64,000 nt of DNA. Source: Candidatus Moanabacter tarae. GTDB lineage: Bacteria > Verrucomicrobiota > Verrucomicrobiia > Opitutales > UBA2987. The notes below the pieces were generated by a model, which did no database searches, had not been told where the DNA came from, and worked only from the letters and a program-made list of their open reading frames with translations. The first letter of the stretch is position 1, and every line of letters begins with the position of its first letter. A program made the translations under genes and the position numbers. The stretch spans positions 416,226-480,225 of the forward strand of contig CP029803.1 in the NCBI GenBank assembly GCA_003226295.1, given 5' to 3'. This document shows, piece after piece, positions 6,648 to 29,751 of the stretch.

Positions 6648-7460
6648 TTAAGGTTGATGATCGGTATTGATTGGTGGTTCGTCGTTAGCAATAAAGCGCT
6701 CAATGGAGTTGACAGTGGAAGTGGAGGAGTCCTTTCGGGGGCGGAAATCTCTCTGCCAAACCTCACGAAAATAGGCTTGTTTTTCACGAGGTAAAGATTG
6801 CAGAACGACCGGGGGAATATTAAGACGATGCCAGTGGGTGCTAAGATGTGAATAGGCGTGGAGAATTGTTACTCGGGGTGTATTGCGGTTCCAAACAGGT
6901 CCTGCGTGACATAGATTCTCGGTAAAAAATACAGCGCTCCCTGCTGGGCAGGCGTAGGTGGTTAAGAAGGGACTGCGCTTATCGTTATCGAGGGAAAGAT
7001 GATCTGGATGGGTGTCGAATTCCGATTTGTGACTGCCGACAAGGAAGTGCGTACTCTGATCTTCCATAGAGATGTCGGTCAATTCGAAGATCACTCGGAC
7101 CATTCCCGCGTGAATCCGGCCGTTTTTTACCCGATAGCCAAAAATAGGATCGGCTTGCCTAGGGCCACCCCCGTGAAGGGGACCGTGTTCCTCGCCCTTG
7201 CAGCGCCATACACAACTGGGACTCTCGAGGCGAATGTCCGGTCCAATGACTTCGTGGAGGACGTCAATTACTTGAGGATGGTCGATGAGCAGACTGGCTG
7301 GCCCCCCGGGCACAGCACGGTGCTGGGGGGGGAGGGATTGGGGATCATGCTTTATTCGATCTACCTGTTCAAGAATGGCAGCTACCTCCATTGGCTTAAG
7401 AATTGCCGGGCGTACCAGGAAGCCTGTTAAGTCGAAACGAAAGCGTTCTTCTTCGGTCAT
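6648..7460 (-). CDS. PhyH-like protein with HxG in place of the HxD iron motif (clade A)
   Basis: A PhyH-fold protein of 270 residues from the ATG at 7460. This start matches the N-terminus of the two related proteins (MTEEERFRFD here); an in-frame ATG lies four codons upstream. The first iron-binding motif reads L-H96-G-G98-G, so glycine stands where all HxD relatives here have aspartate. The distal His is H185 (FTENLCHAG) and the 2OG arginine is R196. The same substitution (Ala or Gly for Asp) opens a halide site in Fe/2OG halogenases such as SyrB2 and WelO5. A glutamate four residues before the distal His is shared by the three HxG proteins and might instead serve as a ligand. The gene heads the minus-strand run with the TauD-like gene. 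Confidence 0.85.
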   Translation of the reverse strand: MTEEERFRFDLTGFLVRPAILKPMEVAAILEQVDRIKHDPQSLPPQHRAVPGGPASLLIDHPQVIDVLHEVIGPDIRLESPSCVWRCKGEEHGPLHGGGPRQADPIFGYRVKNGRIHAGMVRVIFELTDISMEDQSTHFLVGSHKSEFDTHPDHLSLDNDKRSPFLTTYACPAGSAVFFTENLCHAGPVWNRNTPRVTILHAYSHLSTHWHRLNIPPVVLQSLPREKQAYFREVWQRDFRPRKDSSTSTVNSIERFIANDEPPINTDHQP

Positions 7461-7714
7461 AGACATTTCCAAATAACCTTCTAATCAAGCCAATTTGTCA
7501 AACCGTACTTATGCCTATAATTACATTTCTAATTTCTCAGCGGCGTTGCGTTCGAATTCCGATGATTTACTTGTGATATACTTCATGAAATCCTATCAAG
7601 CTGGATTAGAGCCGATACACGGGTTGTTTTTGCCTAGAGGGATGAAGTTACCTATATGAGGTCAGAATTTACCGAGAGGAACTTTCCCTAGTAGCGGCGA
7701 GCCAAAATGCACCG

Positions 7715-8692
7715 TTAAGCACAGGCCGGATGGTTCGAATTCCAGCGGTTGAACGGGCCAGGATCTGGGTCGACAGCGAGGCGATCACGGGCGTCGCGCC
7801 AAGACTGTTCCCACTCAGCAGGATTTCTCAACACGTCTTCAGGATGAGTGCGGCTTCGGGCTACGAAGCCAGGGAAGGCTTCGCGCCCTGTTGCCTGACC
7901 GATGGGATTATACCGTAAATCGAAGCTCCAGCGTACTTCATTGCTTTTATTTGAAAGCGAACCATGGACGATAAGTTTATGGAAGAAAAGTACGTCTCCT
8001 GCCTCCATCGGAATAGGAATGCACGAAGATTTATCAAAATTTTGATCAGGTATTCTAAGGCCGCCAGTTCCTCCAGGGCAGTGGGTTGTCAATCCATCTA
8101 GGTGGCTCCCAGGCACTACTTGAAGGCAGCCATGTTCTTCTCGGGCTGGTGTCAGTGGAAACCACACTGTCAGCATATTCGTTTTGTCGGATTCTGGGCG
8201 GACGACCCCATTGTCCTGATGCCAGCTTGTGGCCCCGAGCATAGGTTGGCCATCTTCAGTTCGGGGAACGAGGCTCTCAGGTGGTTTGATGCGAACGTGT
8301 TGCACCGGATTGGAATAGATTTCTGGACCGATGAAACATTCGACGTAATCTAAAAGATCAGGATCCGTTATGGCCCGAAAAACAGCTGGACCAGCCCAAA
8401 ATGGTGTATCTGGCTCTATGCTACCTGCTTGAGGGAGTGAGAAGTCGAAATACTGGGCATGTATTTTGCGTGTTTCAGCATAGATACGCGTTATGCGATC
8501 ACTGAACGATAGTTCCTCATAGAGCTCAAGAATCTCTTTGGCCTCGTAAAGCTCGTTAGCCAAACGGTTAAGAACCTCGTGGTATTCCCTAATGATTGGG
8601 TTGATAATGCGCTCAACATCGAGAACCTTCTTAACAAGAAGATAGCCCTCCCTCTTGAATTGTTCCATCTGACGATGTGTAAGTCGTGGCAT
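7715..8692 (-). CDS. PhyH-family Fe(II)/2OG dioxygenase, long form (HxD type)
   Basis: A 325-residue protein with the complete PhyH triad: H158-x-D160 (SWHQDNG), distal H243 (LIVHGSLSN) and R254 for 2-oxoglutarate. QVVPGSHLDG is the conserved loop. An N-terminal helical extension (about residues 30-75) makes it longer than most relatives here. It is clearly paralogous to the protein at 35281-36207: both share the helical extension, an IQHVR or VQHVR segment before the iron motif, and the ends RWSFDLRYNP and RWSLDLRYQI. The gene is separated by about 250 bases from the next minus-strand PhyH gene and probably has its own promoter. Confidence 0.88.
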   Translation of the reverse strand: MPRLTHRQMEQFKREGYLLVKKVLDVERIINPIIREYHEVLNRLANELYEAKEILELYEELSFSDRITRIYAETRKIHAQYFDFSLPQAGSIEPDTPFWAGPAVFRAITDPDLLDYVECFIGPEIYSNPVQHVRIKPPESLVPRTEDGQPMLGATSWHQDNGVVRPESDKTNMLTVWFPLTPAREEHGCLQVVPGSHLDGLTTHCPGGTGGLRIPDQNFDKSSCIPIPMEAGDVLFFHKLIVHGSLSNKSNEVRWSFDLRYNPIGQATGREAFPGFVARSRTHPEDVLRNPAEWEQSWRDARDRLAVDPDPGPFNRWNSNHPACA

Positions 8693-9069
8693 GGTAAGTT
8701 TTTCCTAACAGGTGATAACTTGAGTGGCGCCAACAGCTGATAATGTACTTCTATACGTTTCAGTGAAGCGGAAACCTTAGTTACTAAAATTGAATAAGAA
8801 CGAGTGTCAACGGTACGTTTGTCGAACTTCCCAAGACCTTCTAGCCGTCGGGACTTCGAAACTTAGAAAGATTGTAGAGATCTGAAATGTCAGCCTATCG
8901 CCCTTTTATCGGGCTAACAATGTTGGGATTTAAAAGATATTTTACTTTTAAAAAAAGAGTGATCTTTTGTTTTTTTGGAGTCATTGTGCTCGTGCGTCCT
9001 AGTTATTAAATTCACAGTGTGAAAGCCCGAATTTCCATTGAGATTTCAAGTTAGCCGTCAGCTCTGGAA
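8693..9069. other. Divergent intergenic region
   Basis: A 377-base spacer between the starts of a minus-strand and a plus-strand PhyH gene, so it should hold promoters in both directions. Around 8931-8980 it is very AT-rich, with runs of A and T and a loose AAAAGAT/ATCTTTT inverted pair. I could not fix promoter elements by eye. Confidence 0.4.
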
Positions 9070-10371
9070 ATGACTTATCCGTACAATAGTATTATTCAAA
9101 GCTATCTCACAGATGGCTATGTTACAGTTCAAACGGATTTCGACGAGGCCTTTCATCGAAGTATCTATGATCGCATCGAGGAAATTTTTGAATCAAACGG
9201 GAATCCCGGTAACGACATCTACCCCCAAATTCCAGGACTCGGTGATGTCTTTTGCCACCCTCGTGTCCGCCGTGCGCTAACTGCGATATTGGGTCCCGAT
9301 TATATCATGCACCCACATCGTCATTGTCATCTAACTCCTCCAGGGAAGGAAGCGCAGATTAATCATAAGGACAGTTACGAGGATGATGAAAATGTCCGTC
9401 ATCACCGGAGCCGCTGGGCGATGGCTTTTTACTATCCGAGAGACGTTGACGAAGATTATGGTCCGACGGCCGTGACGCCTGGGTCTCAGTACTACATACA
9501 GAGCCAAAGCCTAGAGTCACTTGAAGAGAAAAAGCTGTGTGGACCTGCCGGCTTGGTCACGATTGTCCATTACGATCTTTGGCATCGCGCTTCCCCGAAT
9601 CTCACGGATCAGAATCGGTATATGATGAAATTTTTGTTCTGTCGGAAGAAAGAGCCGGTCTTCCCGTCTTGGAATAGCAAAAACGAACTTCCGGATTTTT
9701 GTAAGAATCGAAGTCTATGCGAACATCTTTGGCGGTGGAATACGGGTCAAGGTATGGCGCTTACAAACGGAGAGGAAATTACAACGGCGCTCATCGATCA
9801 ATATCGTCACGGATCAGAGCCGGAGAGACTCGATGCAGCCTATCGTTTAGGTGGAGCAGGTAAAACAGATGGACTTCTCGAGCTCCTTACGGACGACTTG
9901 GAAGCACGGGTGGAGGGAAACCTTGAGAAGCCCCACACAAATGCTTGCCAGATTGATGCAATCTACGGGCTTACTGCTGCCGGGGGAAAAGCCGTTCCTG
10001 ATTTAGCGGATATTTTGTCCCATTCAGATTGGTGGATGCGTGCTGTAGCGGCCGACGCCCTTGGAGATATTGGACGTCCAGCTGTTTCGGCGACCCGCCG
10101 TTTGGCAGGAGCCTTGGAAGATGAATCAGAATGGGTACGACGAAATGCAGTCGAGGCTCTTGGGAATCTGAATGCGGTGGATGTTGTAGACAATCTTGGA
10201 AGGGCACTTGGCGATGAAAGCGAAAGTGTTCGTCATAACGCGGCCCTATCAATCTTAAAGATCGGTTCGTTTTCTGCTGGCTGTCGCAAAAGTCTGACGG
10301 AGGTTTTGGATGACAGCAATCGATATGTTCGAGCTCTCTCCCGGATTTTACTGGATACGAACTTCAGTTAG
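9070..10371 (+). CDS. PhyH dioxygenase fused to C-terminal HEAT repeats
   Basis: A 433-residue fusion. Residues 1 to about 200 form a PhyH-type dioxygenase: H99-x-D101 (INHKDSYED), distal H172 (LWHRASPN) and R183. Residues about 245-433 are HEAT/PBS-lyase-type helical repeats, seen as recurring A-A-D-A-L-G-D-I-G and R-x-N-A-V-E-A-L-G type units near 325-333, 357-364 and 388-397. HEAT repeats usually bind proteins, so the oxygenase may act on, or be recruited by, a protein partner or assembly. No other PhyH gene here carries an extra domain. The boundary (about 200-245) is linker-like. It stands alone on the plus strand. Confidence 0.85.
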   Translation: MTYPYNSIIQSYLTDGYVTVQTDFDEAFHRSIYDRIEEIFESNGNPGNDIYPQIPGLGDVFCHPRVRRALTAILGPDYIMHPHRHCHLTPPGKEAQINHKDSYEDDENVRHHRSRWAMAFYYPRDVDEDYGPTAVTPGSQYYIQSQSLESLEEKKLCGPAGLVTIVHYDLWHRASPNLTDQNRYMMKFLFCRKKEPVFPSWNSKNELPDFCKNRSLCEHLWRWNTGQGMALTNGEEITTALIDQYRHGSEPERLDAAYRLGGAGKTDGLLELLTDDLEARVEGNLEKPHTNACQIDAIYGLTAAGGKAVPDLADILSHSDWWMRAVAADALGDIGRPAVSATRRLAGALEDESEWVRRNAVEALGNLNAVDVVDNLGRALGDESESVRHNAALSILKIGSFSAGCRKSLTEVLDDSNRYVRALSRILLDTNFS

Positions 10372-10394
10372 GACTCTTTCGTAACAGAAGTCTG

Positions 10395-10982
10395 TCAATT
10401 TTTTTTCGCGGTTGTAAGTTTAAAATGGCTCATAGATAATTGGCCTGTAACTTCTGAGAGAAAACCCACGAAAGCGAATCCATAGCTTGTAGTAGCGGCG
10501 AGCGCATCATCCAATGACTGAAGTTTTGGCGGCAGTCCTGCCCAGCTGTTGTGCCATTGTGATTCGTCATTGACCAGCCCTACTCGGTTCGGTTTGGCAG
10601 TCCAGCAACCTTCCCCGATTTGTAGAGGGTGTGAAACCAGATGCCATCGATTCAAGGTTGTGTTGACCCAGAAATAACACGCCACGCCTCTGGTATTTAG
10701 ATCGTCTCCCCTCAGGTAAACCGAAAGGGTTGCTCCACGCAGATCAATGGGATCCAGATTCATCCAATTACGATAGAGAATTAGCGGAAGAATGGATATC
10801 GGCTGTTCTGGCGTATCGGCACTCCATTGTTGATGATCAACGGTTATACAGTTGGATCCATATGGACCTTGGCCAGGGCGCCAAGTCGATAGAATAAAAG
10901 TCTCTCGCCATCCCGATATCACTGACGAATGATAGTCGTAGGAACACCAGCCCTCCGGACCTTTTTCGAATGAGTTTGTCAT
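10395..10982 (-). CDS. Unknown beta-rich protein, last gene of an operon with PhyH
   Basis: A 195-residue protein rich in aromatic residues (Trp, Tyr) and in alternating hydrophobic strands, such as LRGATLSVYLRGDD and FAFVGFLSE. This looks like a jelly-roll beta-sandwich of the carbohydrate-binding type. No catalytic motif is visible and I do not recognise a named family. Its start codon overlaps the stop of the PhyH gene at 10979-11854 by four bases, so the two are translationally coupled and probably act together. A substrate- or partner-binding role is a guess. Confidence 0.65.
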   Translation of the reverse strand: MTNSFEKGPEGWCSYDYHSSVISGWRETFILSTWRPGQGPYGSNCITVDHQQWSADTPEQPISILPLILYRNWMNLDPIDLRGATLSVYLRGDDLNTRGVACYFWVNTTLNRWHLVSHPLQIGEGCWTAKPNRVGLVNDESQWHNSWAGLPPKLQSLDDALAATTSYGFAFVGFLSEVTGQLSMSHFKLTTAKKN

Positions 10983-11854
10983 TGCTGCTTTGCCTCTAAA
11001 TTTGACGTATCTGGATAATTCTCCTTTACCCGTTGATTCCGCATTTGTACATCTGGAGGCATTCTATTTCGGGTCGCTCGCGACATCAAAACATCTTTAC
11101 CCCAGGCGGTGTAGACGGGGTCGAGCCAGGCTGGTATGAAACCGGTTGAAGCGCCGAGCCGGTTTGAGTTGGTCGTGATATTAGGGCCAGGGCTGTGCCA
11201 GGTCGATCCGTGGAAGATGAGAAGGGAGCCTGGAGGGCCCTCGGAAGCTACGAGTTGATTATCTCCTTCGGATTCAAGCTTTGTTCGGTAGCGACGAATG
11301 TTCTCATTTTCGTAGCGTAGCTTACCGCTGGTAGGATCCAACCATTTATTACAGACGTGGCCGAAATTATGACTGTAGGGTAAGAGAAGGGTAGCACCAT
11401 TTTCCCGCGTAAATTCAGTCAGCATCCAGATTGCATTGACCATGAAACATACGTTGCTTGGTGTCGGAAGGTTATTCTGAATGAACCAGGGCACAGGAAC
11501 ATCAGCATGTAAACCGCGCTTTAAGCAACCAGGCATCCGCCAAAGAATACCTGGTCCTATTTGCTGAAAGCCTGGTCCTAGGAGTGAGCCAACTAGATCA
11601 AGATGTACAGAATTAGTGACTAGTGGTAGGAACATATTATCTTCGATCGGCTCAATCCGATCAAAGAGCTGATCCATAATCTGTTCGCCATTAGGATTGT
11701 CGTGATCCGGTAGTGCAGACATTATTTCCATGAGCCGGTCACCTATACGCAAGGCTTGGTCCCGGGGGATGAGATCATGGATGACGACGAAACCGCGTTC
11801 CTGCAACTCGCGCTTGAGCTTACCAATGTTGAGATTGGGAGGTGATGGCACCAC
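10979..11854 (-). CDS. PhyH-family Fe(II)/2OG dioxygenase (HxD type)
   Basis: A 291-residue PhyH protein: H116-x-D118 (GLHADVPVP), distal H220 (STWHSPGPN) and R232. The conserved loop is LLLPYSHN in place of the common PGSH. It sits in the middle of a minus-strand group, 44 bases after the gene at 11899-12720 and overlapping the following gene by four bases. The consistent partners, both of unknown function and beta-rich, suggest a dedicated pathway. The substrate is unknown. Confidence 0.87.
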   Translation of the reverse strand: MVPSPPNLNIGKLKRELQERGFVVIHDLIPRDQALRIGDRLMEIMSALPDHDNPNGEQIMDQLFDRIEPIEDNMFLPLVTNSVHLDLVGSLLGPGFQQIGPGILWRMPGCLKRGLHADVPVPWFIQNNLPTPSNVCFMVNAIWMLTEFTRENGATLLLPYSHNFGHVCNKWLDPTSGKLRYENENIRRYRTKLESEGDNQLVASEGPPGSLLIFHGSTWHSPGPNITTNSNRLGASTGFIPAWLDPVYTAWGKDVLMSRATRNRMPPDVQMRNQRVKENYPDTSNLEAKQQ

Positions 11855-11898
11855 GATCGATTCTCTTTTAGTGGTGGGAATTTAGGCAAATTACCGAG

Positions 11899-12720
11899 CT
11901 AGAGTTCGTTTACCGAGAGGCTTTTCCCGGCCGTTTCTTTCCATGATTGGTAGCTCTTTAGGGCTTCATCGAGTCTACCTTCCTTAAGAAATACTATGCC
12001 GCGACGTTGAATTGATGCCTTTGGTTCTATATCATGGATCATCAAGTCGGAGTGGAGGCACCGGACACAAGGTGCTTTATTGAGGAAGATTCGATTTGCT
12101 TCATGCCAGGCATAACATAGAACGTAGCGTTCGTCTTTTGACACGACGAAGTGGGCTCCCTCAAGTAGCCGGCATTTTGATTTGTCCTGCATAGGGAGAA
12201 TTTCTCCGACCTTAATGTAGACTAGCTGCCTTTCTGGTGGAAAGATTAACTCTCGACTGGCTACGAATCCGCTGTCAGTGAAAAGAAAGGTTCTGTACCC
12301 GTCTTCATCGAAGTAATCAGGAGAGGCTGACCGTTGAAGGCAAATGCTGCTCTTAAAGTATTTCCATTTGATAGGCCCGATATTATTAATATCCAACGCG
12401 AGATGAGCCTCAGTTTCTTCCCACCGGACAATGCATTTTAAAAGCGCCAAATCGTCGATGTTCTGGGTCCGTGCTAATGTTTTACGAATCTTCCGTCCAG
12501 TCTTCATGTCTCCGATGGCCTTATTTTCGTACTGCCATGGGGCTACAGTGTTTTCATAAGTCGATTGCCAGAGAAGATTATCACTCGAATCATAGGCCAT
12601 AATGGATTCTGGAAACCACAATCTCAGAAGATTAGCAGGTGCTTGGCTGTGTTCTGCTCTGCGAGGTTCATTGAGCCAAATATCCACGCCAGCTTGGGGA
12701 TAAGCATTGAGCTGTTGCAT
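11899..12720 (-). CDS. Unknown protein, first gene of a PhyH-containing operon
   Basis: A 273-residue protein with no family I can name. The first 235 residues are mostly beta-type. The motif CVRCLHSDLMIHD near residues 219-231 has two cysteines and two histidines close together and could hold a metal, but this is weak. The last 30 residues look like a single TPR-like helix pair (GRLDEALKSYQSW). The following PhyH gene begins 44 bases downstream, so co-expression is likely. It could be a sugar-binding or mutarotase-like beta-sandwich; I give no function. Confidence 0.6.
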   Translation of the reverse strand: MQQLNAYPQAGVDIWLNEPRRAEHSQAPANLLRLWFPESIMAYDSSDNLLWQSTYENTVAPWQYENKAIGDMKTGRKIRKTLARTQNIDDLALLKCIVRWEETEAHLALDINNIGPIKWKYFKSSICLQRSASPDYFDEDGYRTFLFTDSGFVASRELIFPPERQLVYIKVGEILPMQDKSKCRLLEGAHFVVSKDERYVLCYAWHEANRIFLNKAPCVRCLHSDLMIHDIEPKASIQRRGIVFLKEGRLDEALKSYQSWKETAGKSLSVNEL

Positions 12721-12987
12721 TTTTTTTCTAAAACTTGTTTAAGTTTGTTCTATTCGGAATAAGCGATGAGAACAGGACTGGTGTCACTTTTCCAAAAAGC
12801 CGCACTGGGTCCTTAAACTATGTTGGGAATACTTGGTCTGTTGGTTCAGTTTCTCCAAAACAATTCGATGTGGATTCTAAGGTTATCCGACTGAGTACAG
12901 TGATTTGCCAATACCTTATTCCTAACCCAGTCCAGATCATTATCCTAGTCTGATGATATCGTATTTGTTTTTCCAAGGTAGTTAACG

Positions 12988-14526
12988 CTAATATGTTATA
13001 ACGAGTTCGATTCCCTCGATTCGGAGGGCCATGTCCCGCTCCACTTCTTCGACGTAGACGCTAATTTCATTCTCCCCCTGCAAAACATGCCCGACGGGAA
13101 ACTTCCATGTAGTGCAGGCTGGTGCATCGAGGCGATGCCCTTCCTTCATTTTCTCCCCATTTAGCACAACGATGATGTGTTGATTTTCAGAGATTCCCTT
13201 AGCGAAAGTGAAACGAAGCCAGATATCGACTGGAACACCTTCCCTCAATGAGCTTTCTACATCGTCACCTACCCAAATAGTAAAAGACTTCTTGTCATCC
13301 GTCGATCGGATTTCTTGAGGCAATGGTTTCACACCACCTTCCTCCGGAGTACGCAATTTCATGTCCACACAGACGCAATAGCGCTTATCCTTTCTCACAA
13401 GAGTTTTAGGGTCAGCGATCTCTTTGAGAACTTTGATCTCTTGAGGAGTGTAAGGGAAGTCTGGACCAAGTTGCCGGTGGCAGTCGTAATTAAATAGGTA
13501 GATGCTGCTGGCTCCTTGGTGCCAGAAGCTCATTGCAGCCGCGTAGAGCATGTCAGGTCCTGCTTGTCGATAACCCTTAGCCAAGTGTTCTATGCCTCCT
13601 CCGATGCGGCAGCGGGTGTTCTGAGCCATCTTTACAAAACCCTTAATGTCAGCACCCATATCAAGGTAGCTTCCCTGCATCGGAACGAAGAGATCAGCCA
13701 ACTCTTCCTGGATCCAGGTTGCGACATCGAGGCCAATATCTAAACACAAATCCAGCGTAGGCGGAATCCGAGCAATTAATATGAAAGAACGACCTTTCCT
13801 GTTGGCGACTTCACGAGTCCCATTTCGCACCTTTCTCATAAAGTCTGTCAACAGGGGCATTCCTTCCTGTTCTTTGCCTTCCTTAAAGTACCAAGGTCCC
13901 CGTTGGAAATCCAGTTCAAAGCCATCCACGTCGTATTTCTCACAGGTCTCAAGGATAAGTCCTAATTTTCTCTCCCGAACCTCCTCCTTGGCAAAGTTGA
14001 AAGCCCAGGTGAAATTATCCTGAGGGTATCCATACGATCCGTCGGACGGATAGGGAGAACCGAGAAGAAGGTCAGGATGTTCCTTTTTGAACTCGCTACG
14101 AAAGGCGGCAAATCGGCTACCATCATCTTCGTGCACATCATTCATTCTCAAAGCAGGCCAAAATTGGAGTCCTCTCTGATGAGCTCTTTCCGACAAGAGT
14201 TCGATAATATTGATTTCGGCATCTAGCAGTGCTCGGCCATTATCTGCCATAAAACGAACCCACTGAAGATTGCCGTGACCGTCTTCTCCTTCCGGCCAAT
14301 TTGAAAACCCTTCTCCGTAAAGGTCCCCGTACTCAGTAGGATGCGAGAATGTGTCGTCTCCTCGGCCCATAGAATTCGAGAAGACATCAACCCCAGTATC
14401 AGCAACTTCTTCGATGTCCCGACAGGCCTTTTCTGAGGTGATCGGTGGTTCAAAAACCGAAAGCGTTGTGCTGTCCCCGTCAGAGTTGAAGATTAGCCGA
14501 GGAAATTCTTCATTTTTAGCATTCAT
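12988..14526 (-). CDS. TIM-barrel glycoside-hydrolase-like protein with C-terminal beta domain
   Basis: A 512-residue protein. Residues about 20-390 show the pattern of a GH-like (beta/alpha)8 barrel. The strand YDVDGFELDF (about 198-207), with E204 and D206, resembles the catalytic strand of GHL10/DUF4015-type and alpha-galactosidase-like barrels. LQFWPALRMND (about 120-130) is an earlier strand. The final about 110 residues form a beta-sandwich with a KMKEGHRLD turn. No signal peptide is evident. It is probably a glycosidase or transglycosidase on a complex glycan. It is transcribed away from the HxG PhyH gene at 14657. Confidence 0.78.
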   Translation of the reverse strand: MNAKNEEFPRLIFNSDGDSTTLSVFEPPITSEKACRDIEEVADTGVDVFSNSMGRGDDTFSHPTEYGDLYGEGFSNWPEGEDGHGNLQWVRFMADNGRALLDAEINIIELLSERAHQRGLQFWPALRMNDVHEDDGSRFAAFRSEFKKEHPDLLLGSPYPSDGSYGYPQDNFTWAFNFAKEEVRERKLGLILETCEKYDVDGFELDFQRGPWYFKEGKEQEGMPLLTDFMRKVRNGTREVANRKGRSFILIARIPPTLDLCLDIGLDVATWIQEELADLFVPMQGSYLDMGADIKGFVKMAQNTRCRIGGGIEHLAKGYRQAGPDMLYAAAMSFWHQGASSIYLFNYDCHRQLGPDFPYTPQEIKVLKEIADPKTLVRKDKRYCVCVDMKLRTPEEGGVKPLPQEIRSTDDKKSFTIWVGDDVESSLREGVPVDIWLRFTFAKGISENQHIIVVLNGEKMKEGHRLDAPACTTWKFPVGHVLQGENEISVYVEEVERDMALRIEGIELVITY

Positions 14527-14656
14527 TATAGTCCCTCCAAATTGGAATACACAGGATTAGCAAGATGAGTAAGAGTATAAAATATAGGATAGAATCATAA
14601 CTCAAGTTTAACGTATTGACACGAGTTATAAAGTGGGTGACTACTATTTTCGTACG

Positions 14657-15478
14657 ATGACTGAGCATGAACGTTACCTGTTCGATCTTCAGGGCTTCTT
14701 GTTGATCGAGGATATGCTTGGTGCCGACGACTTGGAAGATCTAAACCGAGGTCTTGACGAGTACAACTTATGGGAGAAATTTGAGGAAAAGGATCCCTTT
14801 TTCGAATTTTGGGAGAACAGAGAAAATCAGATTTCTGCGGGTCCTCTGCATCTTTTTGCAAAGCCGTTTCGTCGTTTAATGGGTCATCCTCGTATTGTCC
14901 CATACTTAGTTGGACTGCTTGGTAATCAGTTCCGCTACGATCATGGACATGCTATGCTAATGAAAAAGGGTGGAGCGTCTTTGAGCCTGCACGGAGGGGC
15001 TATGCCATGGAAACCCGGCCTTCAATATGGGGTGGCCGACAATCAAATTCATTGTGAACTCTTGGTCGTCGCATATACTTTGTGTGATGTCAACGAGGGA
15101 GATGGGGGCCTCTGCCTGGTGCCAGGAAGTCACAAAAGTAATTTCCCTTGCCCGGAGAGCTTCGCGTCTCTTGAAAGAGCGGGGTCATGGCTCAGACGAC
15201 TGCCACAAAAAGCGGGTTCGGCAGTTATATTTACCGAGGCACTCACCCACGGGACGTGGCCTTGGACTGCAGCTCAGGAGCGGCGTGTGCTGTTTTACCG
15301 CTATACTCCTGGTTATATGGCATTCCTGGGACGTTACGGGGAAGATAGGCGCGAGAGAGCTGGCGGGGGATATTCTCGACTTCCTCCTGAATCAGAAGAT
15401 GAGTGGAGCTCTGAAGAACAGCGTATTCTCGAGGCGCCCTACTTGTTTAATCGTGCTGAAACAATATTGGAAAAATGA
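14657..15478 (+). CDS. PhyH-like protein with HxG in place of the HxD iron motif (clade A)
   Basis: A 273-residue protein from ATG 14657, chosen over an upstream in-frame GTG (14633) because MTEHERYLFD matches the N-termini of the two related proteins. The iron motif reads SLH112-G-G114, with glycine replacing aspartate. The distal His is H198 (FTEALTHGT) and the 2OG arginine is R209 or R210. VPGSHKSNF is the conserved loop. Either a halide or pseudohalide fills the vacant iron position as in Fe/2OG halogenases, or another residue, for example the shared Glu of FTE, replaces the carboxylate. The gene is divergent from the TIM-barrel gene. Confidence 0.85.
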   Translation: MTEHERYLFDLQGFLLIEDMLGADDLEDLNRGLDEYNLWEKFEEKDPFFEFWENRENQISAGPLHLFAKPFRRLMGHPRIVPYLVGLLGNQFRYDHGHAMLMKKGGASLSLHGGAMPWKPGLQYGVADNQIHCELLVVAYTLCDVNEGDGGLCLVPGSHKSNFPCPESFASLERAGSWLRRLPQKAGSAVIFTEALTHGTWPWTAAQERRVLFYRYTPGYMAFLGRYGEDRRERAGGGYSRLPPESEDEWSSEEQRILEAPYLFNRAETILEK

Positions 15479-15975
15479 TGGAGAGTCTTGGGGTCCATAC
15501 GCTATTGTCGATTTAGGTGGGATTGGAGAAATTCCTTAAGTTGTCCTAGAGCAATTTGTTTTGGACTCAATTACCTCCTAAAGAAATTAGCGTACCGTAA
15601 TTCCTGACTATGATTATTAGGTATAGTAATCATAGTAGTTCTTGTATTACATCCTGATGTATTGCCCACTTTGACTTTCCCAATGTCCGGTAAGCGTTCG
15701 TCAAAGAAAGTGGATTAACAAAAAGACAACTTAATCCAATTCCCTTTTTCACTGTACGGGCGATAATAATTACGATTTGCTTCGATGTTATTGTTAAGGT
15801 TTGCCTTAGGATGTAAAAGTTTAGCTTGTTTTCCGTCATGACCCCCATGATTAGCAATCCGTCAATATTAAAGTATGTTAGATCCTTACAGAGGATAAGA
15901 AGTAATCTATAATAAATTGTAGTTTAGTGTCTCTCAGAACTTGATGTTATCAAAGTGGTTGTCATACACTGAGAA
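15479..15975. other. Intergenic spacer with one perfect inverted repeat
   Basis: A spacer of nearly 500 bases between two plus-strand genes. It holds the inverted repeat listed at 15607-15636. A 75-codon minus-strand frame (15630-15857) has no family features and is not called. The AT-rich end near 15900-15960 probably carries the promoter of the gamma-glutamyltransferase gene. Confidence 0.4.
15607..15636. repeat. Perfect 10-bp inverted repeat (terminator or operator)
   Basis: ACTATGATTA (15607-15616) and TAATCATAGT (15627-15636) are exact reverse complements separated by ten bases. The stem is AT-rich and has no T tract after it. It lies about 130 bases downstream of the PhyH stop and 340 bases upstream of the next gene. 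It could be a weak terminator or a dimeric regulator site. Confidence 0.5.
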
Positions 15976-17610: not shown

Positions 17611-17890
17611 TATATCGTTTAAATTTTAGACCAGTCGTGAGGGGGAAGAGTTGGCTTCCTTTAATGGCGGAAGTTTCCGTAAGCAGGGACGTCGCCTAGT
17701 TTCTGGACCTACTAAATTGTGATAGTAACAGTGATTGAATCCATACTGAAAATAATAAGCGTGTCCAATTTTACATTTTGACTTCTTGCGATGGCTGGTT
17801 TTCGAACACTACGAAATTACTATAAAATATGGAACAGGCATTTGGAGGTCAAATACTGAGATCAGTTTGCTCTTATGGAGATAAAAAAAC

Positions 17891-19270: not shown

Positions 19271-19364
19271 TAAGTTAGATTTTGGGCTTGAGAACGTAAC
19301 ATACTGTGTTCTAGAAGAATTGGAATTGCGTTCGGTGCTTCGTCAGATGTACTAGGAGGGGAAA

Positions 19365-20588: not shown

Positions 20589-20610
20589 TCCTGTACGGTG
20601 ATGCTTAGGT

Positions 20611-21861: not shown

Positions 21862-22116
21862 ACTTATCTTTCGGTTCTTTCCTTCAATATAGATATTACC
21901 TAAAGTAATATGAATAGAGATACAATTGATTTTAAAGAGCTTGAAGCGTACCTTGATTCATTAGCAGAATGAATGTGGGTTCTATTTATTATCTTATCTG
22001 CGAAGGACTAACGGTGTAGTTGTCCCCGCTCTGGGGGGTGCGCTGATATAGTTATATTAGAGGATAAATAGAATAAAGTCTGAGTTTACTTTAAATGATC
22101 CAGTCACAATAATCTA

Positions 22117-23055
22117 ATGGATAATAGAACAAAGATGGTTGAATTAGAAACGCGGCGGTTGGGTCGAACGGAGATGAAGCCGAAAGCACTGGGACTGGGT
22201 TGTGCATTTCTTGGATCTCCGCAACGCGTTGACGAAGATGGAGCGATTGAAGCTGTCCGGTATGCAATTGACCAAGGTGTAAATTTTCTAGATACATCGA
22301 GTGGCTACGGTGCAGGGGAAAGCGAACGCCGAGTGGGGTTAGCTTTGGAAGACGGCTACCGAAAAAAAATTTATCTGCAGACAAAAGCGGGGACCCATCC
22401 TGAGCGGCAAAATGATTATTCAGCCGATGGGATTCGCTGGAGTGTGGAAAATAGCCTGAAACGATTACGGGTGAATTTTATCGATTCCGTTCTCATCCAT
22501 GATCCGAGAGAGGATGATAATCCCCTAGCTCCTGGTGCGGCCTTTGACGCCTTGTTGCAATTGAAGGCGGAAGGGATTATCGGGCATATGGGGATAGGGG
22601 TTCGATCGCACGAATGGCACCGCAAGGCAATTGAGACCGGTCATTGCGATATTGTTCTTACGTTTCTCGACTATACTTTGATCAACCAATCCGCAGCAGA
22701 TACGGTAATCCCTCTTGCACTCAAAAATGATGTTGGCGTTATCCTTGCGAGTGTACAGGGGATGGGGTTGTTGGCGGGACCAGAGCCAGACATAAAGATT
22801 GAAGAACGGCGTCCTCCTGGACAAGTTCAGTTAGCTCACGACATTTGGAAGTGGTGTCAAGAGAGGGATGTGAATATTCGTCAACTCGCCTTAGGATTCT
22901 GCCTGGCTGCACCCCTGAATGGGAATGGAATGGTACTGGCAGGTCCGGCAAACAAGCTAGAGGTTCAGGAGGTATTAGAGGCAGCAACAATACCATTGCC
23001 GAGAGAAGTATGGCAGGAGTTTGAGGATCGGTTTGGGGTTGGAGTAAAGATGTAA
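22117..23055 (+). CDS. Aldo/keto reductase
   Basis: A 312-residue (beta/alpha)8 NAD(P)H-dependent reductase. The AKR tetrad is visible: D59 (NFLDTS), Y64 (SGYGAGESE), K90 (LQTKAGT) and H128 (VLIHDP). The sequence resembles the D-threo-aldose or L-galactose dehydrogenase branch. It acts on sugar aldehydes or lactols in the cytoplasm, consistent with the acid-sugar dehydratase gene 247 bases downstream. A second ATG lies at 22135, and the choice between the two is uncertain. Confidence 0.9.
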   Translation: MDNRTKMVELETRRLGRTEMKPKALGLGCAFLGSPQRVDEDGAIEAVRYAIDQGVNFLDTSSGYGAGESERRVGLALEDGYRKKIYLQTKAGTHPERQNDYSADGIRWSVENSLKRLRVNFIDSVLIHDPREDDNPLAPGAAFDALLQLKAEGIIGHMGIGVRSHEWHRKAIETGHCDIVLTFLDYTLINQSAADTVIPLALKNDVGVILASVQGMGLLAGPEPDIKIEERRPPGQVQLAHDIWKWCQERDVNIRQLALGFCLAAPLNGNGMVLAGPANKLEVQEVLEAATIPLPREVWQEFEDRFGVGVKM

Positions 23056-23301
23056 AATTTCGATCAACAAGAGGGCCTCGGTTTTGCTGGATAAGTTGAT
23101 AAACAGAGAGCGGAGGATGCAGGGATAATAGTTTATAACTGACTCTGTGAATAGGATTCCTTGCCTTCTTCTCTGTTGCGAGCGAATTTTGAAGACGAGA
23201 TCTCATCGTTGGCGAATGGAATAAACTTTTTTTGTAATTGGAGTCGAAAAAATACGGTAGGGTCTCATGTTTCGACAAGGACAATAGATTAGCCATTTCC
23301 C

Positions 23302-24417
23302 ATGAAAATTACAAATATCAAGACCTTCCTTGTTGACGGGTATCTGCTTGTTCGCGTTTACACAGATTCTGGTATCGTTGGTAATGGCGAAGCCGGACTT
23401 TGGGCCTACCATCGAACGGTAAAGACTGCCATAGAAGAGATCGCAGAGTACTATATTGGCAAGGATCCACTACAGATTGAATTCCACGCTCAAGTTGTCA
23501 CACGGAATACACACTTTCGGGGTTCTGCTCTTAATGCAGCATACAGTGCTATCGATATTGCTCTTTGGGATATCCTCGGAAAGTCCGTTAATTTGCCTGT
23601 GTATCAACTGCTAGGAGGAAAGTGTCGTGAGCGGGTTCGTGTATTCGCTAACGTCATTGGAGACTCGATAGAAGAACTATGCGAATCTGCACGAACTTCT
23701 GTAGAACAAGGGTATATGGTCCTGAGACTAACACCTTTCTCAACCAACTTCGAACAACAGGAATCAACCAAAGTCATCGCGAGTGCGGTCGAATTAGTAG
23801 CAGGAGTGAGGGATGCAATTGGAATGGAGATTGACTTAGGTCTGGAGATTCATCGGAACCTCCAGCCTGATCAGGCTATTACGCTGGCCTCCGAACTAAA
23901 ACCATTCCGATTGAAATTTTACGAAGATCCTTTGCCGCCGGAGAGCACAGGAGCCCTCGAGTATATTTCCCGGCATATAGATATTCCTATGGCAGTAGGT
24001 GAGCGTAGCTACGATCTTTTCCAATTTCGGGAACTGCTTGAAAGGAAAATTGTCGCTTTCATCCGCCCGGATCTATCGCTTGCAGGAGGCTTTACTCAGG
24101 TTAAGAAGATAGCAGCCATAGCTGAGGCCGATTTTGTCCAAATTTTTCCTCATCTAATGGGAAGTCCAGTCAATACAGCGGCCTTCACCCATCTTGCTGT
24201 AGCAATTCCAAATTACTACGTGATGGAGTCTAATCGGCACAGTGTAAAACAGAGTGCAGTTGTTGATCAACCATTTGTAATCGAAGAGGGCTACCGGCGC
24301 GTTGAAGATCGACCAGGTATCGGTGTGGAGATTGATGAGAAGGCACTTGAATCTCTGGCTTTCCAACCTCGTCAGATATCCGGAAATTTCCATTCCGATG
24401 GGTCGGTAGCCCATTAA
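23302..24417 (+). CDS. Enolase-superfamily acid-sugar dehydratase-like protein
   Basis: A 371-residue member of the mandelate racemase/muconate lactonizing family. Barrel metal ligands are E182 (LEIHRN, where Asp is more common), E208 (FYEDPLPPE) and E234 (VGERS). The general base His is H284 (FPHLMGSPV). The usual strand-2 lysine is R142, as in galactonate-dehydratase-like enzymes that rely on the His. It probably dehydrates an aldonic or uronic acid. It lies downstream of the aldo/keto reductase on the same strand and convergent to the SDR gene. Confidence 0.88.
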   Translation: MKITNIKTFLVDGYLLVRVYTDSGIVGNGEAGLWAYHRTVKTAIEEIAEYYIGKDPLQIEFHAQVVTRNTHFRGSALNAAYSAIDIALWDILGKSVNLPVYQLLGGKCRERVRVFANVIGDSIEELCESARTSVEQGYMVLRLTPFSTNFEQQESTKVIASAVELVAGVRDAIGMEIDLGLEIHRNLQPDQAITLASELKPFRLKFYEDPLPPESTGALEYISRHIDIPMAVGERSYDLFQFRELLERKIVAFIRPDLSLAGGFTQVKKIAAIAEADFVQIFPHLMGSPVNTAAFTHLAVAIPNYYVMESNRHSVKQSAVVDQPFVIEEGYRRVEDRPGIGVEIDEKALESLAFQPRQISGNFHSDGSVAH

Positions 24418-24465
24418 AGTTATCGCTTCACTAATTGGAGCATTTTGGTGTTAAGAGTCCGGAAT

Positions 24466-24493
24466 CAAATTGTACCAAATGAAATACAATTTG
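24466..24493. terminator. 9-bp inverted repeat between convergent genes, candidate bidirectional terminator
   Basis: CAAATTGTA (24466-24474) and TACAATTTG (24485-24493) form a perfect stem with a ten-base loop, 48 bases after the dehydratase stop. TTTG follows on the plus strand, so the U tract is poor. The position between two convergent genes supports a terminator role. Confidence 0.4.
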
Positions 24494-24634
24494 TTTGCTA
24501 GTTCTCTAGGGGTAATTGGTTCTACTGGAATTAGAGGAACGATTTGGATTAGAGAATAGAGCAAGCCCCTTGTATGTGCGTAATAAAGAAATAGCAGTAG
24601 GAATATTAGGTGATTTTAAATTTCACGTTCCAGA

Positions 24635-25396
24635 TCAGCAAAGTACATATCCCCCACATACTCGAATGGTTTGGCCGGTAAGGTAATCGGATAAATCGGT
24701 CACGAGAAATTCAATCACTTTTGCGCAATCTTCTGGATCTCCAAGACGGCCGAGAGCGATTTTTGACTCGAGGTCTCGTCGAGTTTCACCTTGGCTGCGT
24801 CCTCCGGCAATAGCGCGTGAACTGAGAATGAATCCAGGCGCTATCGCATTAACGTTTATTCCGTAAGGACCAAGTTCATTGGCGAGGCATCTTGTATAGT
24901 GAATCACCGCTGCTTTGGATGTCGCATAGGATTGACCATTGCTACCGATGATTCCAGCTTGGCTGGCCACGTTCACTATCTTTCCCGAACGCTGGCGTTT
25001 CATAATTTCTGCCGAGGCTTCGCAACAATGCACGGTCCCGTGGAAATTCAAATCGTGCATTGGTTTGAATTCTTTCGGTCCGAATAAGGCACCTCCTGCG
25101 TTATTAACTAGAATATCGAGTTTGCCCAATGACTCCTCGACCTTACGAAACATCAATTTTACCTGTGAACAGTCCGTTACATCGCACTCAAGCCCTATGC
25201 CTCTCACTCCGATTGCTTCGATTTCCTGGGGCACGCTTGCCGCAGTTATTTCCTCGTCATACTCTTCGTGAGACCGGATGTTGATATCATTTACGGCTAC
25301 ATCAGCTCCGAGTCTTGCTAGATGAAGGGCGTAGGCTCTCCCAAGCCCGCGTGCAGCGCCTGTTACCAATGCTACTTTTCCATCTAACTTCCCCAT
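24635..25396 (-). CDS. Short-chain dehydrogenase/reductase (SDR)
   Basis: A 253-residue classical SDR. The cofactor motif TGAARGLG is at about residues 12-19, NNAGG follows, and the catalytic pair lies in S-Y-A-T-S-K. NAIAPGF and the C-terminal LTGQTIRVCGG segment are typical. The start is the ATG at 25396, giving MGKLDGKVAL; an in-frame TTG 11 codons upstream would add residues not expected in the family. It interconverts an alcohol and a ketone on a sugar or polyol. It is transcribed divergently from the FAD oxidase gene. Confidence 0.9.
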   Translation of the reverse strand: MGKLDGKVALVTGAARGLGRAYALHLARLGADVAVNDINIRSHEEYDEEITAASVPQEIEAIGVRGIGLECDVTDCSQVKLMFRKVEESLGKLDILVNNAGGALFGPKEFKPMHDLNFHGTVHCCEASAEIMKRQRSGKIVNVASQAGIIGSNGQSYATSKAAVIHYTRCLANELGPYGINVNAIAPGFILSSRAIAGGRSQGETRRDLESKIALGRLGDPEDCAKVIEFLVTDLSDYLTGQTIRVCGGYVLC

Positions 25397-25619
25397 AATT
25401 ACTAATGTTTCCTGAAGGTGGATCCACAAACCGATAGAATCAATAATGTTATAGTTAAATAGATTCTAGCGATCTTCAAGGTGGTACGTCAGGAAAATCT
25501 GTGTTTAGGGAGGAGTCTCTAAACTTTCTTGTTCCAATCAGCGAATAATCGTAAAATCTCTACAGTTTATATAGTTCTTTTAAGTTTTATATCTCAATGA
25601 ATTTAGTCTGAATTATCTT

Positions 25620-26738
25620 ATGGCTGAAACCAGTAAAATCGTTATACTAGGTGGTGGAGTAGTTGGGTGCTCGATTGCTTACTACTTGAGTCGTGAAGGT
25701 GTTAAATCGACCATAATTGAACGAGAAGGAATAGGGAGCCAGGCATCAGGATATTCCGTTGGTGGGCTTAATCCTCTCGAGGGTTCTCACATTCCGGGAC
25801 AGCTAGCACCTTTAGCGATTGAGAGCTATCGGATGCATGCAGATTTGTGGGAATGGCTAAAAGAAGAGACGAGGATCTGTTTTCAGGGAAGAGTGACGGA
25901 AATGGTAACACTTGCCTTTTCCGAGGCAGAAATTCCGGGTTTGTTCAAATCCTTGGAATACTTCGAGAATGCGAGTTCGGATGGATTCTCTGGTTGCTGG
26001 ATGGATGCCAAGGAACTGTTGAATCTCGAACCTCGGTTATCTTCAAAACTGATCGGGGGTGCATTGCTGCGTGGTAATCGGGCACTCGACAGCTTCGAAT
26101 TTACCAGGGCTTTGGCCGATGCTGCAGGTAAACGGGGGGTGGCCTTTAGGCATGGACTTGTTGAAACTTTCAAGACAGACGGTAATCGAGTATATAGAGT
26201 CATTCTTGGGGATGGAGAGATAGATTGTGAGCAAGTGGTCCTAGCTGCCGGTCCGTGGTCAGGTCAGCTCGTTCGTTGTCTGAATTTAGACTTGCCGGTC
26301 GAACCGCTCAAGGGCGAACTGTTGCGAATGAAGCTTCCTGGTCTTCGGTTGCCGTGCGACTTCATTGGAGATGGATTCTCGATCTATGCCAAGCCCGATG
26401 GCCTTGTTTGGTGCGGAACTACCGAAGAATGGCAAGGTTTTGATCGCAAGCCGAGTGATTCAGCACGTGCTTCTATATTGAAGGGAGCGATGCGAATATT
26501 ACCAGATATTGCCAAAGCCGAACTGATAAAACACACTGCGTGTCTTCGCCCAATGACTACTGATGCGATGCCTGTGATCGGACGTGCGCCTGGGTGGGAT
26601 AATGTTTTTCTAGCCACAGGTGCTGGTAGAAAGGGAATTTTACTAAGTACAGGAATGGGTAAATCCATTACTGATTTGCTGACAGCAAGGACAACCGAGA
26701 TATCAATTGAACATTGCTCTCCTGAGCGATATGGATAA
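25620..26738 (+). CDS. FAD-dependent oxidoreductase, DAO family
   Basis: A 372-residue flavoprotein with IVILGGGVVGCSIA (about residues 7-20) as FAD-binding fingerprint and the C-terminal GAGRKGILLSTGMG flavin loop. It belongs to the glycine oxidase/sarcosine oxidase-like branch, oxidising amines or N-methyl groups with O2 and releasing H2O2 or an electron-carrier product. It is the first gene of a plus-strand group (dehydratase, two PhyH, isomerase) ending at 30820. It is a distant paralog of 19365-20588. Confidence 0.9.
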   Translation: MAETSKIVILGGGVVGCSIAYYLSREGVKSTIIEREGIGSQASGYSVGGLNPLEGSHIPGQLAPLAIESYRMHADLWEWLKEETRICFQGRVTEMVTLAFSEAEIPGLFKSLEYFENASSDGFSGCWMDAKELLNLEPRLSSKLIGGALLRGNRALDSFEFTRALADAAGKRGVAFRHGLVETFKTDGNRVYRVILGDGEIDCEQVVLAAGPWSGQLVRCLNLDLPVEPLKGELLRMKLPGLRLPCDFIGDGFSIYAKPDGLVWCGTTEEWQGFDRKPSDSARASILKGAMRILPDIAKAELIKHTACLRPMTTDAMPVIGRAPGWDNVFLATGAGRKGILLSTGMGKSITDLLTARTTEISIEHCSPERYG

Positions 26739-26819
26739 CGAAAGAGTGCTGTATGAATTCGAGTCTGGGCAAGAATGGCTTGAGTTCCCAACCACCGAGT
26801 TGTTTCCTGCTTAAATCTT

Positions 26820-27977
26820 ATGATAATCAGCGATCTAAAAACTTACGTTGTACAGTTAAAGGATGCTAGCCGATATACAGTTACTTGGACCTATTTAAGG
26901 ATTGAGACAGATACGGGTATAGTGGGATGGGGTGAAGCGGGTGCTTCTGTCCAGAACACAGCGCTCGTTTGTCGTACCGGACTGGAGCAGTTGCGGCCAA
27001 TATTAATTGGTGAAAATCCTTCCGACATTGAACGTATTTGGCACAAGATCTATCGGACCTATACCTATTTCGGCTCGAAGGGTTTTGGAACGGCAATTGC
27101 ATCTGCGGTCGATCTTGCGCTTTGGGATATTAAAGGAAAGGAAGTCGGAAAACCGGTCTTCGATCTAATTGGTGGGCGATTTAGAAACCGAATACTACTT
27201 TACAATAATACCTGGTTCTTGGGTGCTAAAACACCTGAAGAATTTGCCGACTATGCTAAACGGAATGTAATTGATCAGGGTTACACTGCCTGTAAGATTG
27301 ATCCTTTCTTGGAGATGCGGCCTTATCATCGTATGTACCAGAGCGGTCAGATTTCTGAGTCCGGAGAGCAGGAAGGCTACGACATTGTTGCCTCTGTAAG
27401 GGAAGCAGTGGGACCGAAGCACGAAATTTTGATCGACGCCCATGGGCACTACAATGTGCCTACAGCGATCAGGTTGGCAAATAACCTACATGAGCAGTCA
27501 AACATAACTTGGTTCGAAGAACCGGTCCCACCAGAATCCTACGACGCTTTGGCGAGCGTCAGGCAACAAACCGTTCCTCCAATTTGCATTGGTGAAAGGT
27601 TACGAACCCGATGGGATTTCCTTCCCGTTTTGCAGAATAGTCTTACCGACTATATCATGCCAGATACTCTTTGGACGGGAGGTATAACCGAAATTCGAAA
27701 AATTGCACAATTAGCCGAAATCTACAACATCCCAATTTCACCACATTGCGTTCCCCTCGGTCCCCATGAGATAATTGCAGCGGCTCACGTGTGCTCGACG
27801 GTCCCAAACTTTTACCGACTTGAAAGTGGATTTTCTGCCATCCCTGTTTATCAGAAAATGTTGACCGAGCCGCTATTGTATGAAGACGGTCACTTGATTC
27901 TTAACGGAAAGCCGGGACTTGGATACGATCTTCGAGAGGATTGGCTAGAAGAAAACAAATTTATAACCAACGAGTAA
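26820..27977 (+). CDS. Enolase-superfamily galactonate-dehydratase-like protein
   Basis: A 385-residue enolase-superfamily protein. Metal ligands are D206 (LIDAHGHY), E233 (FEEPVPPE) and E259 (IGERLRTR). H309 (SPHCVPLGP) is the general acid/base at the barrel end, matching the SPHNPLGP motif of galactonate dehydratases. K159 lies on the strand-2 position. It therefore probably carries out syn- or anti-dehydration of an aldonic acid to a 2-keto-3-deoxy product. The next gene begins five bases after its stop, so they are co-transcribed. Confidence 0.9.
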   Translation: MIISDLKTYVVQLKDASRYTVTWTYLRIETDTGIVGWGEAGASVQNTALVCRTGLEQLRPILIGENPSDIERIWHKIYRTYTYFGSKGFGTAIASAVDLALWDIKGKEVGKPVFDLIGGRFRNRILLYNNTWFLGAKTPEEFADYAKRNVIDQGYTACKIDPFLEMRPYHRMYQSGQISESGEQEGYDIVASVREAVGPKHEILIDAHGHYNVPTAIRLANNLHEQSNITWFEEPVPPESYDALASVRQQTVPPICIGERLRTRWDFLPVLQNSLTDYIMPDTLWTGGITEIRKIAQLAEIYNIPISPHCVPLGPHEIIAAAHVCSTVPNFYRLESGFSAIPVYQKMLTEPLLYEDGHLILNGKPGLGYDLREDWLEENKFITNE

Positions 27978-27982
27978 TTCAA

Positions 27983-28819
27983 ATGTCTGAGAATAAACTA
28001 AACCCTGATCAGATCGCCCATTTCGAAACATTTGGTTTTTTACATTTTCCCAACTGTTTTCCAAGTGAGGAATTTAAATCTATATTGAAGGTGGCTGAAG
28101 AGCTGTGGACAAGGAAAGTGGGACATAAGCCTAATATTGAAGAGGATATCCATCTGGATTCTTTTCTCGAAAGTGACCCGAGGCTAATGCGACTTATCCA
28201 TGACGATCGGATTTATGAACCTGTCCATGGATTACTAGGAGATGGCTTCATTTGGTCTGGATCCGAAGGTAATCATGGATTCCCGAAAGACAATACTTCT
28301 CACCACTGGCACGCGGACCGCGCGGGTGAGAAAGAGCTAGGCTATATTCGGATCAAGATCATGCTCTACACAGAGCCGATGCGAAAAGAGCAGGGTGCTC
28401 TGCGGGTGATTCCTGGCTCTCACCGATTACCCTTGCATCGCGACCTGATGTCCTTTCAACGCCGTCACAGTGAAAAGAACCCCTCCTTTTACGGAATGTC
28501 CGGTGATCAGGTGCCCTGCTATGCTATCGAGAGCGAACCCGGAGATATGTTGATATTTAACCACAGCCTTTTTCATGGTGTCTACGGGAAACAAGGCCTC
28601 CGTCGTTATATAGCTTTAAAATTTGCCGCTTGCCCAACCTGTGACGCCAACTTCGCTTCGCTTCAGTACTGGTCTCCATATGCTTTTGAGCCGAACGAGG
28701 TCTTGATCCAAAGTGAACAGCCCCGTATCCGGAATATGGTTGAGGGGCTTAAAGAAATGGGGATACGGGGCCGACGAGTGGTCGGGAATCACTATCAAGG
28801 CGACTGGAGAACAAGTTGA
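27983..28819 (+). CDS. PhyH-family Fe(II)/2OG dioxygenase (HxD type)
   Basis: A 278-residue PhyH protein with H110-x-D112 (HHWHADRAG), distal H198 (SLFHGVYGK) and R207. The loop is RVIPGSHRLP. I start it at ATG 27983, five bases after the upstream stop; a longer in-frame reading would overlap the dehydratase gene. Coupling to an acid-sugar dehydratase suggests oxidation or demethylation of a sugar derivative, which is inference. Confidence 0.88.
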   Translation: MSENKLNPDQIAHFETFGFLHFPNCFPSEEFKSILKVAEELWTRKVGHKPNIEEDIHLDSFLESDPRLMRLIHDDRIYEPVHGLLGDGFIWSGSEGNHGFPKDNTSHHWHADRAGEKELGYIRIKIMLYTEPMRKEQGALRVIPGSHRLPLHRDLMSFQRRHSEKNPSFYGMSGDQVPCYAIESEPGDMLIFNHSLFHGVYGKQGLRRYIALKFAACPTCDANFASLQYWSPYAFEPNEVLIQSEQPRIRNMVEGLKEMGIRGRRVVGNHYQGDWRTS

Positions 28820-28920
28820 ATTTTAATTCGTAGTTAAGTTGATGAGTGATTTTTCTCAGTCTCAGACACAATAAACTAAGAGTAAACATAATCTATGTGC
28901 CAGTTCAATTAGGGTTGACC

Positions 28921-29751
28921 ATGACTGACCTTGAACTCTTTGAATTCGACCGAACAGGGTATCTCAAAATACCTGAACTCCTTTCCAGAGATGAGGTGTC
29001 CTGTCTGCGTGGAGCTGTCGATGCCCTCATCTCTGATGCGGAGAAAAATTTAGATCTGCAACCTAGGGTAACGGCTCCCTCTGGTGCAGAATACCACCGT
29101 AACAACATTCTAGGTTACCATGTCTCCGGCAGTCTGGGGAATCGCGGCAGTCTCTTGGTTGAGGATTTCTTTAATGTCGATCCAACTTTCGATTGTTTGG
29201 TGAATCACAATACCACAATGAGTTACATTGAAGCAATTGTACAAGATCGACCGGCGATTAACAATTCTGAACTTAGGGTGCGATATCCGGGTAATGCCAC
29301 AGGCGCCCACATGGGTGGGCCTGGTTCTTCCAAGCACCGTTTTCGTTTCATCGACAATCGAGTGGAATGCATGATGGTGAGAATGGTTTATTTCCTCCAC
29401 GATGTTTCGGCGAAACAAGGAGCTTTTTGCGTTGTTCCGGGAACTCATAAATCGAATTTTCGCCCTCCTTACCTGGTTGATCGATTACTTCCGGAGGATG
29501 AGCCTGGTATGTTAGCTCTTCCCGCAAAAATGGGAGATGGAATTCTCTTTACTGAAAATCTTCGACATGGAGGTGTAACGAATTACTCTACTCAGGTCCG
29601 AAAGACGCTTCACATTGGGTTTGGTCCCTTCTGGCTCAAGTCACAAAATATAGCGACAATGGATAGCTCCCCATATATTTTGAACCGTACTTTGGAGCGA
29701 TATGACAATAAGCAGAAGCAGCTCTTTAACACCTTCCCAGTGCCAAAATGA
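28921..29751 (+). CDS. PhyH-like protein with HxG in place of the HxD iron motif (clade A)
   Basis: A 276-residue protein from ATG 28921, with an AGGG ribosome-site-like element eight bases upstream. An in-frame upstream start would add 25 unrelated residues, whereas MTDLELFEFD matches the two sister proteins. The iron motif reads G-A-H130-M-G132-G, so aspartate is replaced by glycine. The distal His is H216 (FTENLRHGG), the arginine is R227, and the loop is VPGTHKSNF. It lies directly behind an HxD-type PhyH gene, so both chemistries may act in one pathway. Confidence 0.86.
   Translation: MTDLELFEFDRTGYLKIPELLSRDEVSCLRGAVDALISDAEKNLDLQPRVTAPSGAEYHRNNILGYHVSGSLGNRGSLLVEDFFNVDPTFDCLVNHNTTMSYIEAIVQDRPAINNSELRVRYPGNATGAHMGGPGSSKHRFRFIDNRVECMMVRMVYFLHDVSAKQGAFCVVPGTHKSNFRPPYLVDRLLPEDEPGMLALPAKMGDGILFTENLRHGGVTNYSTQVRKTLHIGFGPFWLKSQNIATMDSSPYILNRTLERYDNKQKQLFNTFPVPK

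Follow-up and report, generated by a model that had tools for sequence, protein, structure and literature searches.

Three proteins encoded in the window (a stretch of 64,000 nucleotides of the Candidatus Moanabacter tarae genome, positions 416226-480225 of genome G000, contig C1), here called A, B and C, are best placed in the HygX-type branch of the PhyH proteins, to which they are new additions. We consider it likely that they are Fe(II)/2-oxoglutarate (2OG) oxygenases in which a glutamate four residues before the distal histidine (position -4) replaces the aspartate of the HxD iron motif, and that they act on substrates that are probably carbohydrate-like. New here are the size and the phylogenetic spread of this branch, and its type with Asp at position -4.

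All three proteins match the Pfam PhyH family (PF05721), at 30, 51 and 46 bits for A, B and C, respectively (cut-off 22). The HxD...H facial triad, usual in PhyH proteins though not required by the PF05721 profile, is absent from them: HxG was found in 3/3, with an acid at -4 instead, Glu standing four residues before and Arg 11 residues after the distal His (Table 1). Translations and residue mapping agreed with an earlier note on this DNA, according to which the HxD Asp is replaced by Gly in A, B and C and kept in all other PhyH proteins encoded there (7/7), and the distal His and the 2OG-binding Arg are retained. The three proteins also share, as was described there, an MTxxExxxFD start, an HKSxF loop and FTExLxH around the distal His; that the trio alone does so is true for the window only, as 13 genes of the genome share these features. 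A further PhyH domain, at 9070-10371 (+) of the window, is fused to C-terminal HEAT repeats.

Table 1. Proteins A, B and C and their motifs (positions in the window).
Feature	Position	Strand	Details
Protein A, HygX-type PhyH, 270 aa	6648..7460	-	H96/G98, HKSEF loop, E181 (-4), distal H185, R196
Protein B, HygX-type PhyH, 273 aa	14657..15478	+	H112/G114, HKSNF loop, E194 (-4), distal H198, R209
Protein C, HygX-type PhyH, 276 aa	28921..29751	+	H130/G132, HKSNF loop, E212 (-4), distal H216, R227
HxG motif of protein A (H96-G97-G98)	7167..7175	-	residue mapping
HxG motif of protein B (H112-G113-G114)	14990..14998	+	residue mapping
HxG motif of protein C (H130-M131-G132)	29308..29316	+	residue mapping
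E181 to distal H185 of protein A (ENLCH)	6906..6920	-	residue mapping
E194 to distal H198 of protein B (EALTH)	15236..15250	+	residue mapping
E212 to distal H216 of protein C (ENLRH)	29554..29568	+	residue mapping

The one-contig genome of 2.63 Mb contains 85 PhyH matches, an expansion similar to that known in sponge Poribacteria (PMC3909097). When all of these genes were aligned, the proximal and the distal His were each present in 85/85, and the HxD Asp was present in 73/85. The 12 genes without it carry G (6), A (3), H, S or N (1 each) and have Glu or Asp at -4 in 12/12 cases, a pattern that rules out both chance and an alignment error as the source of the glycine. Together with 1869512m, which keeps the Asp, they make up a group of 13 genes that have in common an N-terminal D-x-x-G-[YF] and the acid at -4, with HK following GS/GT or SS. 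Among the remaining 72 PhyH genes an acid at -4 occurs in only two (315858p and 1486517p, both Asp). The genome tally is 12 genes with the acid at -4 and no HxD Asp, 3 with both, none with neither and 70 with the Asp only (Fisher p 3.5e-12, ignoring kinship); because paralogues are not independent, this figure describes rather than proves the coupling of Asp loss and acid at -4. Within the 13-member group A, B and C lie on three separate branches, and the clade of three that had been proposed for them dissolves. Elsewhere in the genome, a PhyH gene (L008, G000:C1:1755570-1756199 (-)) carries an in-frame TAG in place of the x codon of HxD, which may mark a pseudogene, an error or recoding, and two tandem PhyH copies (G000:C1:847797-848405 and 848657-849265 (-)) are identical over the 250 residues compared.

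The 13 paralogues belong to one cross-phylum subfamily, of which about 140 sequences were seen. Of 388 genomes of the phylum, own genome uncounted, 14 contained relatives that their profile matched at an E-value of 1e-35, and the matches were strong in one genome of the same order (G016). With an alignment of the Asp(-4) branch, 335 relatives were found in named genomes, 80 of which were kept, and they come from Chloroflexota, Latescibacterota, Gemmatimonadota, Planctomycetota, Poribacteria, Verrucomicrobiota, Alphaproteobacteria, Spirochaetota and others; this set leans to the Asp(-4) branch, which was the query, the 13-row alignment having no conserved stretch. The subfamily was ranked by profile score regardless of the trait. 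At 150 bits or more (n=127) residue -4 is D in 104, E in 22 and G in 1, hence an acid in 126/127, and the single Gly sequence has an acid one place off. At the HxX position the same sequences have G (116), A (5), S (2), and H, N, D or E (1 each). The acid is fixed at -4, the old position of the HxD Asp is free to vary, and the two His are retained together with the 2OG Arg. Below about 135 bits the ranking passes to sequences with HxD, in which -4 is occupied by N or A in the closest outgroup sequences and by N, A, R or S overall; an acid is therefore present at one or other site in almost all sequences. The suggestion that the FTE glutamate is a replacement ligand was upheld as regards a conserved substitute carboxylate, and its direct contact with the metal stays a prediction. 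In the widespread HSGG/FVD subfamily (L139-L218), Gly and Asp(-4) occur together in 84/84 new HxG sequences. Two members in G016 (L131:593-1411 (-) and L075:2334-3176 (+)) lack the proximal His, one of them also the 2OG Arg, and are possible dead copies.

The only solved member of the subfamily found is HygX (PDB 4xc9, 4xca, 4xcb, 4zpi), a nonheme iron 2OG oxygenase of orthosomycin biosynthesis (reviewed in PMC8234114), among whose deposited entries are Fe, Ni/2OG and Ni/2OG/hygromycin B complexes. It scores 117 bits on the family profile, with G at HxX and E at -4, and its aligned sequence reads LHGG and LLLNEALMHGT, the Glu standing four residues before the distal His. In the SEQRES numbering of 4xcb this Glu is residue 205 and the two His are 105 and 209. 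Against the PDB the family profile matched HygX best (6e-33), followed by PHYH (3.5e-19), EctD (9e-19) and SyrB2 (1.6e-10), and HygX was the top match for each of the three proteins alone (E-values 3e-10, 4e-6 and 6e-8, not listed by protein). It was also the best fold match of the AlphaFold models of B (pLDDT 86.6; Foldseek 2.6e-20; VIA Z 25.0, rmsd 3.4 A over 223) and A (pLDDT 83.1; VIA Z 23.7, rmsd 3.3 A over 215), and in the model of B, E194 sits in the turn that joins strands 189-193 and 198-201. A variation in metal coordination is reportedly mentioned in the abstract of the HygX paper of 2015. HygX resembles A, B and C in the PhyH fold, the FDxxG[FY] start, LHGG, the HKxNF loop, the Glu four before the distal His and the Arg at +11, and falls in one clade with them. 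In contrast to them it is a Streptomyces protein of hygromycin B biosynthesis, crystallised with an aminoglycoside; the identity is about 22-25%, and no HygX-like gene cluster was seen around A, B and C. Canonical PhyH proteins (PHYH, EctD, PHYHD1) have the fold, the two His and the Arg of A, B and C, but they keep HxD, and the acid at -4 is absent in nearly all sequences compared.

In a tree computed with the trait columns removed, the family forms one clade including HygX with SH-aLRT 91 (85 in an earlier tree), a value below the starred level of 95, and the HygX branch is long. Protein C clusters with orthologues of three further genomes (support 100), B with 2497819p, 1454012p, 1869512m and others (98) and A with a G016 protein (88). 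The tree requires two changes for the acid at HxD and three for the acid at -4. Members with an acid at both sites, L103:1444-2250 (-) (1869512m) and L105:1501-2235 (+), are paired inside the clade (89), and their sequences look like the outcome of one regain. A sign test of independent swaps had 1-2 pairs only and no power. Since the swap is essentially single on the tree, the coupling rests on long conservation and not on repeated events.

In the mechanism we propose, iron would be held by the proximal and the distal His, and the Glu at -4 would supply the carboxylate that was lost with the HxD Asp, most likely by binding iron directly, possibly via a held water. The conserved Arg at +11 from the distal His would bind 2OG. 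Ordinary ferryl chemistry is probable, in which abstraction of hydrogen from a C-H bond would end in hydroxylation, oxidative demethylation or oxidative ring closure. Counting against this explanation are the two family members with an acid at both sites and the two without the proximal His, as well as the essentially single swap, which leaves an association without independent replication.

Human AspH, a 2OG oxygenase of solved structure, provides a precedent for a -4 carboxylate at the site vacated by the HxD acid. Its HxD carboxylate is absent, two His are the ligands, and Asp721, four residues before the distal His725, points at the vacant ligand site and hydrogen-bonds the water that fills it; the D721A variant is much less active (PMC13168262). 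By analogy, iron in A, B and C might be bound by the two His only, with the -4 carboxylate in the second sphere holding a water in place of the Asp. Such a site would fit the new HxG sequences of the large HSGG subfamily, in which residue -4 is the shorter Asp. We nevertheless judge it unlikely for A, B and C, as in these proteins and in HygX residue -4 is the longer Glu, whose reach is greater and which would bind the iron directly. Moreover, AspH resembles A, B and C by motif position only (no HxD, two His and an acid at -4 of the distal His); it belongs to a different 2OG-oxygenase family whose backbone geometry may differ, has Asp and not Glu and acts on a protein substrate; the likeness is convergent at most. 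A, B and C passed the Pfam cut-off for PhyH only and are not in the AspH family. A tentative history, which we hold to be possible rather than probable, would combine both types of site: the iron carboxylate of PhyH proteins moved once from HxD to -4, after which a Glu type (direct ligand: HygX, A, B and C) and a widespread Asp type (HSGG and FVD, with a water held as in AspH) arose, and rare members regained the old acid.

The reading of A, B and C as halogenases of the SyrB2/WelO5/BesD type, in which the Gly leaves room for a halide that is passed to the substrate, did not survive the comparison and appears extremely improbable. Known halogenases do share the HxG/HxA motif with A, B and C, SyrB2 is distantly related by the family profile, and SyrB2, CytC3 and other Fe/2OG halogenases share with them the change of Asp to a small residue and a PhyH-like fold. 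Halogenases, however, need the vacated site for the halide (PMC4019311), a need that misfits A, B and C because the acid adjoining the site is fixed at -4 and the HxX position is free, being S, N, H, D or E besides G and A across the family. HygX is far closer than SyrB2 by sequence score, and in AspH, which hydroxylates and does not halogenate, the -4 acid, with the water it holds, is an obstacle to halide binding (PMC13168262). With the chlorinating-enzyme model NCBIfam TIGR01762 (cut-off 226.3 bits), which covers carrier-protein halogenases and not WelO5 or BesD, A, B and C reached 11 bits at best or were unlisted; no protein came near the cut-off, and within this genome the model prefers HxD paralogues. 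SyrB2, WelO5 and BesD were not among the best 50 fold matches listed, an absence that excludes none of them. Decay into catalytically dead PhyH copies, for which the two G016 members without the proximal His could speak, is likewise very improbable: A, B and C keep both His, the Arg, the Lys and the Glu, the orthologues of C in two genomes of other families are 51-60% identical to it and carry the same HMGGP motif, and the subfamily is conserved across phyla. The view of the earlier note that random decay is not at work is thereby strengthened.

Proteins A, B and C have as window neighbours reading frames resembling Gfo/Idh, enolase-superfamily, aldo-keto reductase, sugar isomerase and TPP-enzyme families, named by eye except for PhyH, TauD and HEAT (Pfam). 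Around the Asp(-4) relatives, enolase-superfamily-like clusters were seen at 22/69 loci and sulfatase-like ones at 21/69, again named by eye. These neighbours weakly suggest carbohydrate breakdown. No conserved context was seen around the orthologues of protein C, whose neighbours matched Pfam MFS, MscS, cyclophilin, MoxR and PNP_UDP, several being without a match. PhyH proteins are also known to O-demethylate 2'-O-methyl nucleosides (PMC12709175). The substrate we name for A, B and C is a guess from gene context.

HxG is often taken as the mark of a halogenase. Our data indicate that HxG alone is insufficient as such a mark and that the residue four before the distal His must also be checked. 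A metal site known in a single antibiotic enzyme heads a large, mostly unassigned family present in many phyla, and this family offers natural intermediates for the study of iron-site rebuilding. If the single move of the carboxylate is correct, the split into Glu-type and Asp-type branches and the regain of the old acid would form a natural series for the rebuilding of the facial triad. A, B and C are probably sugar-oxidising enzymes of a large neglected family rather than halogenases.
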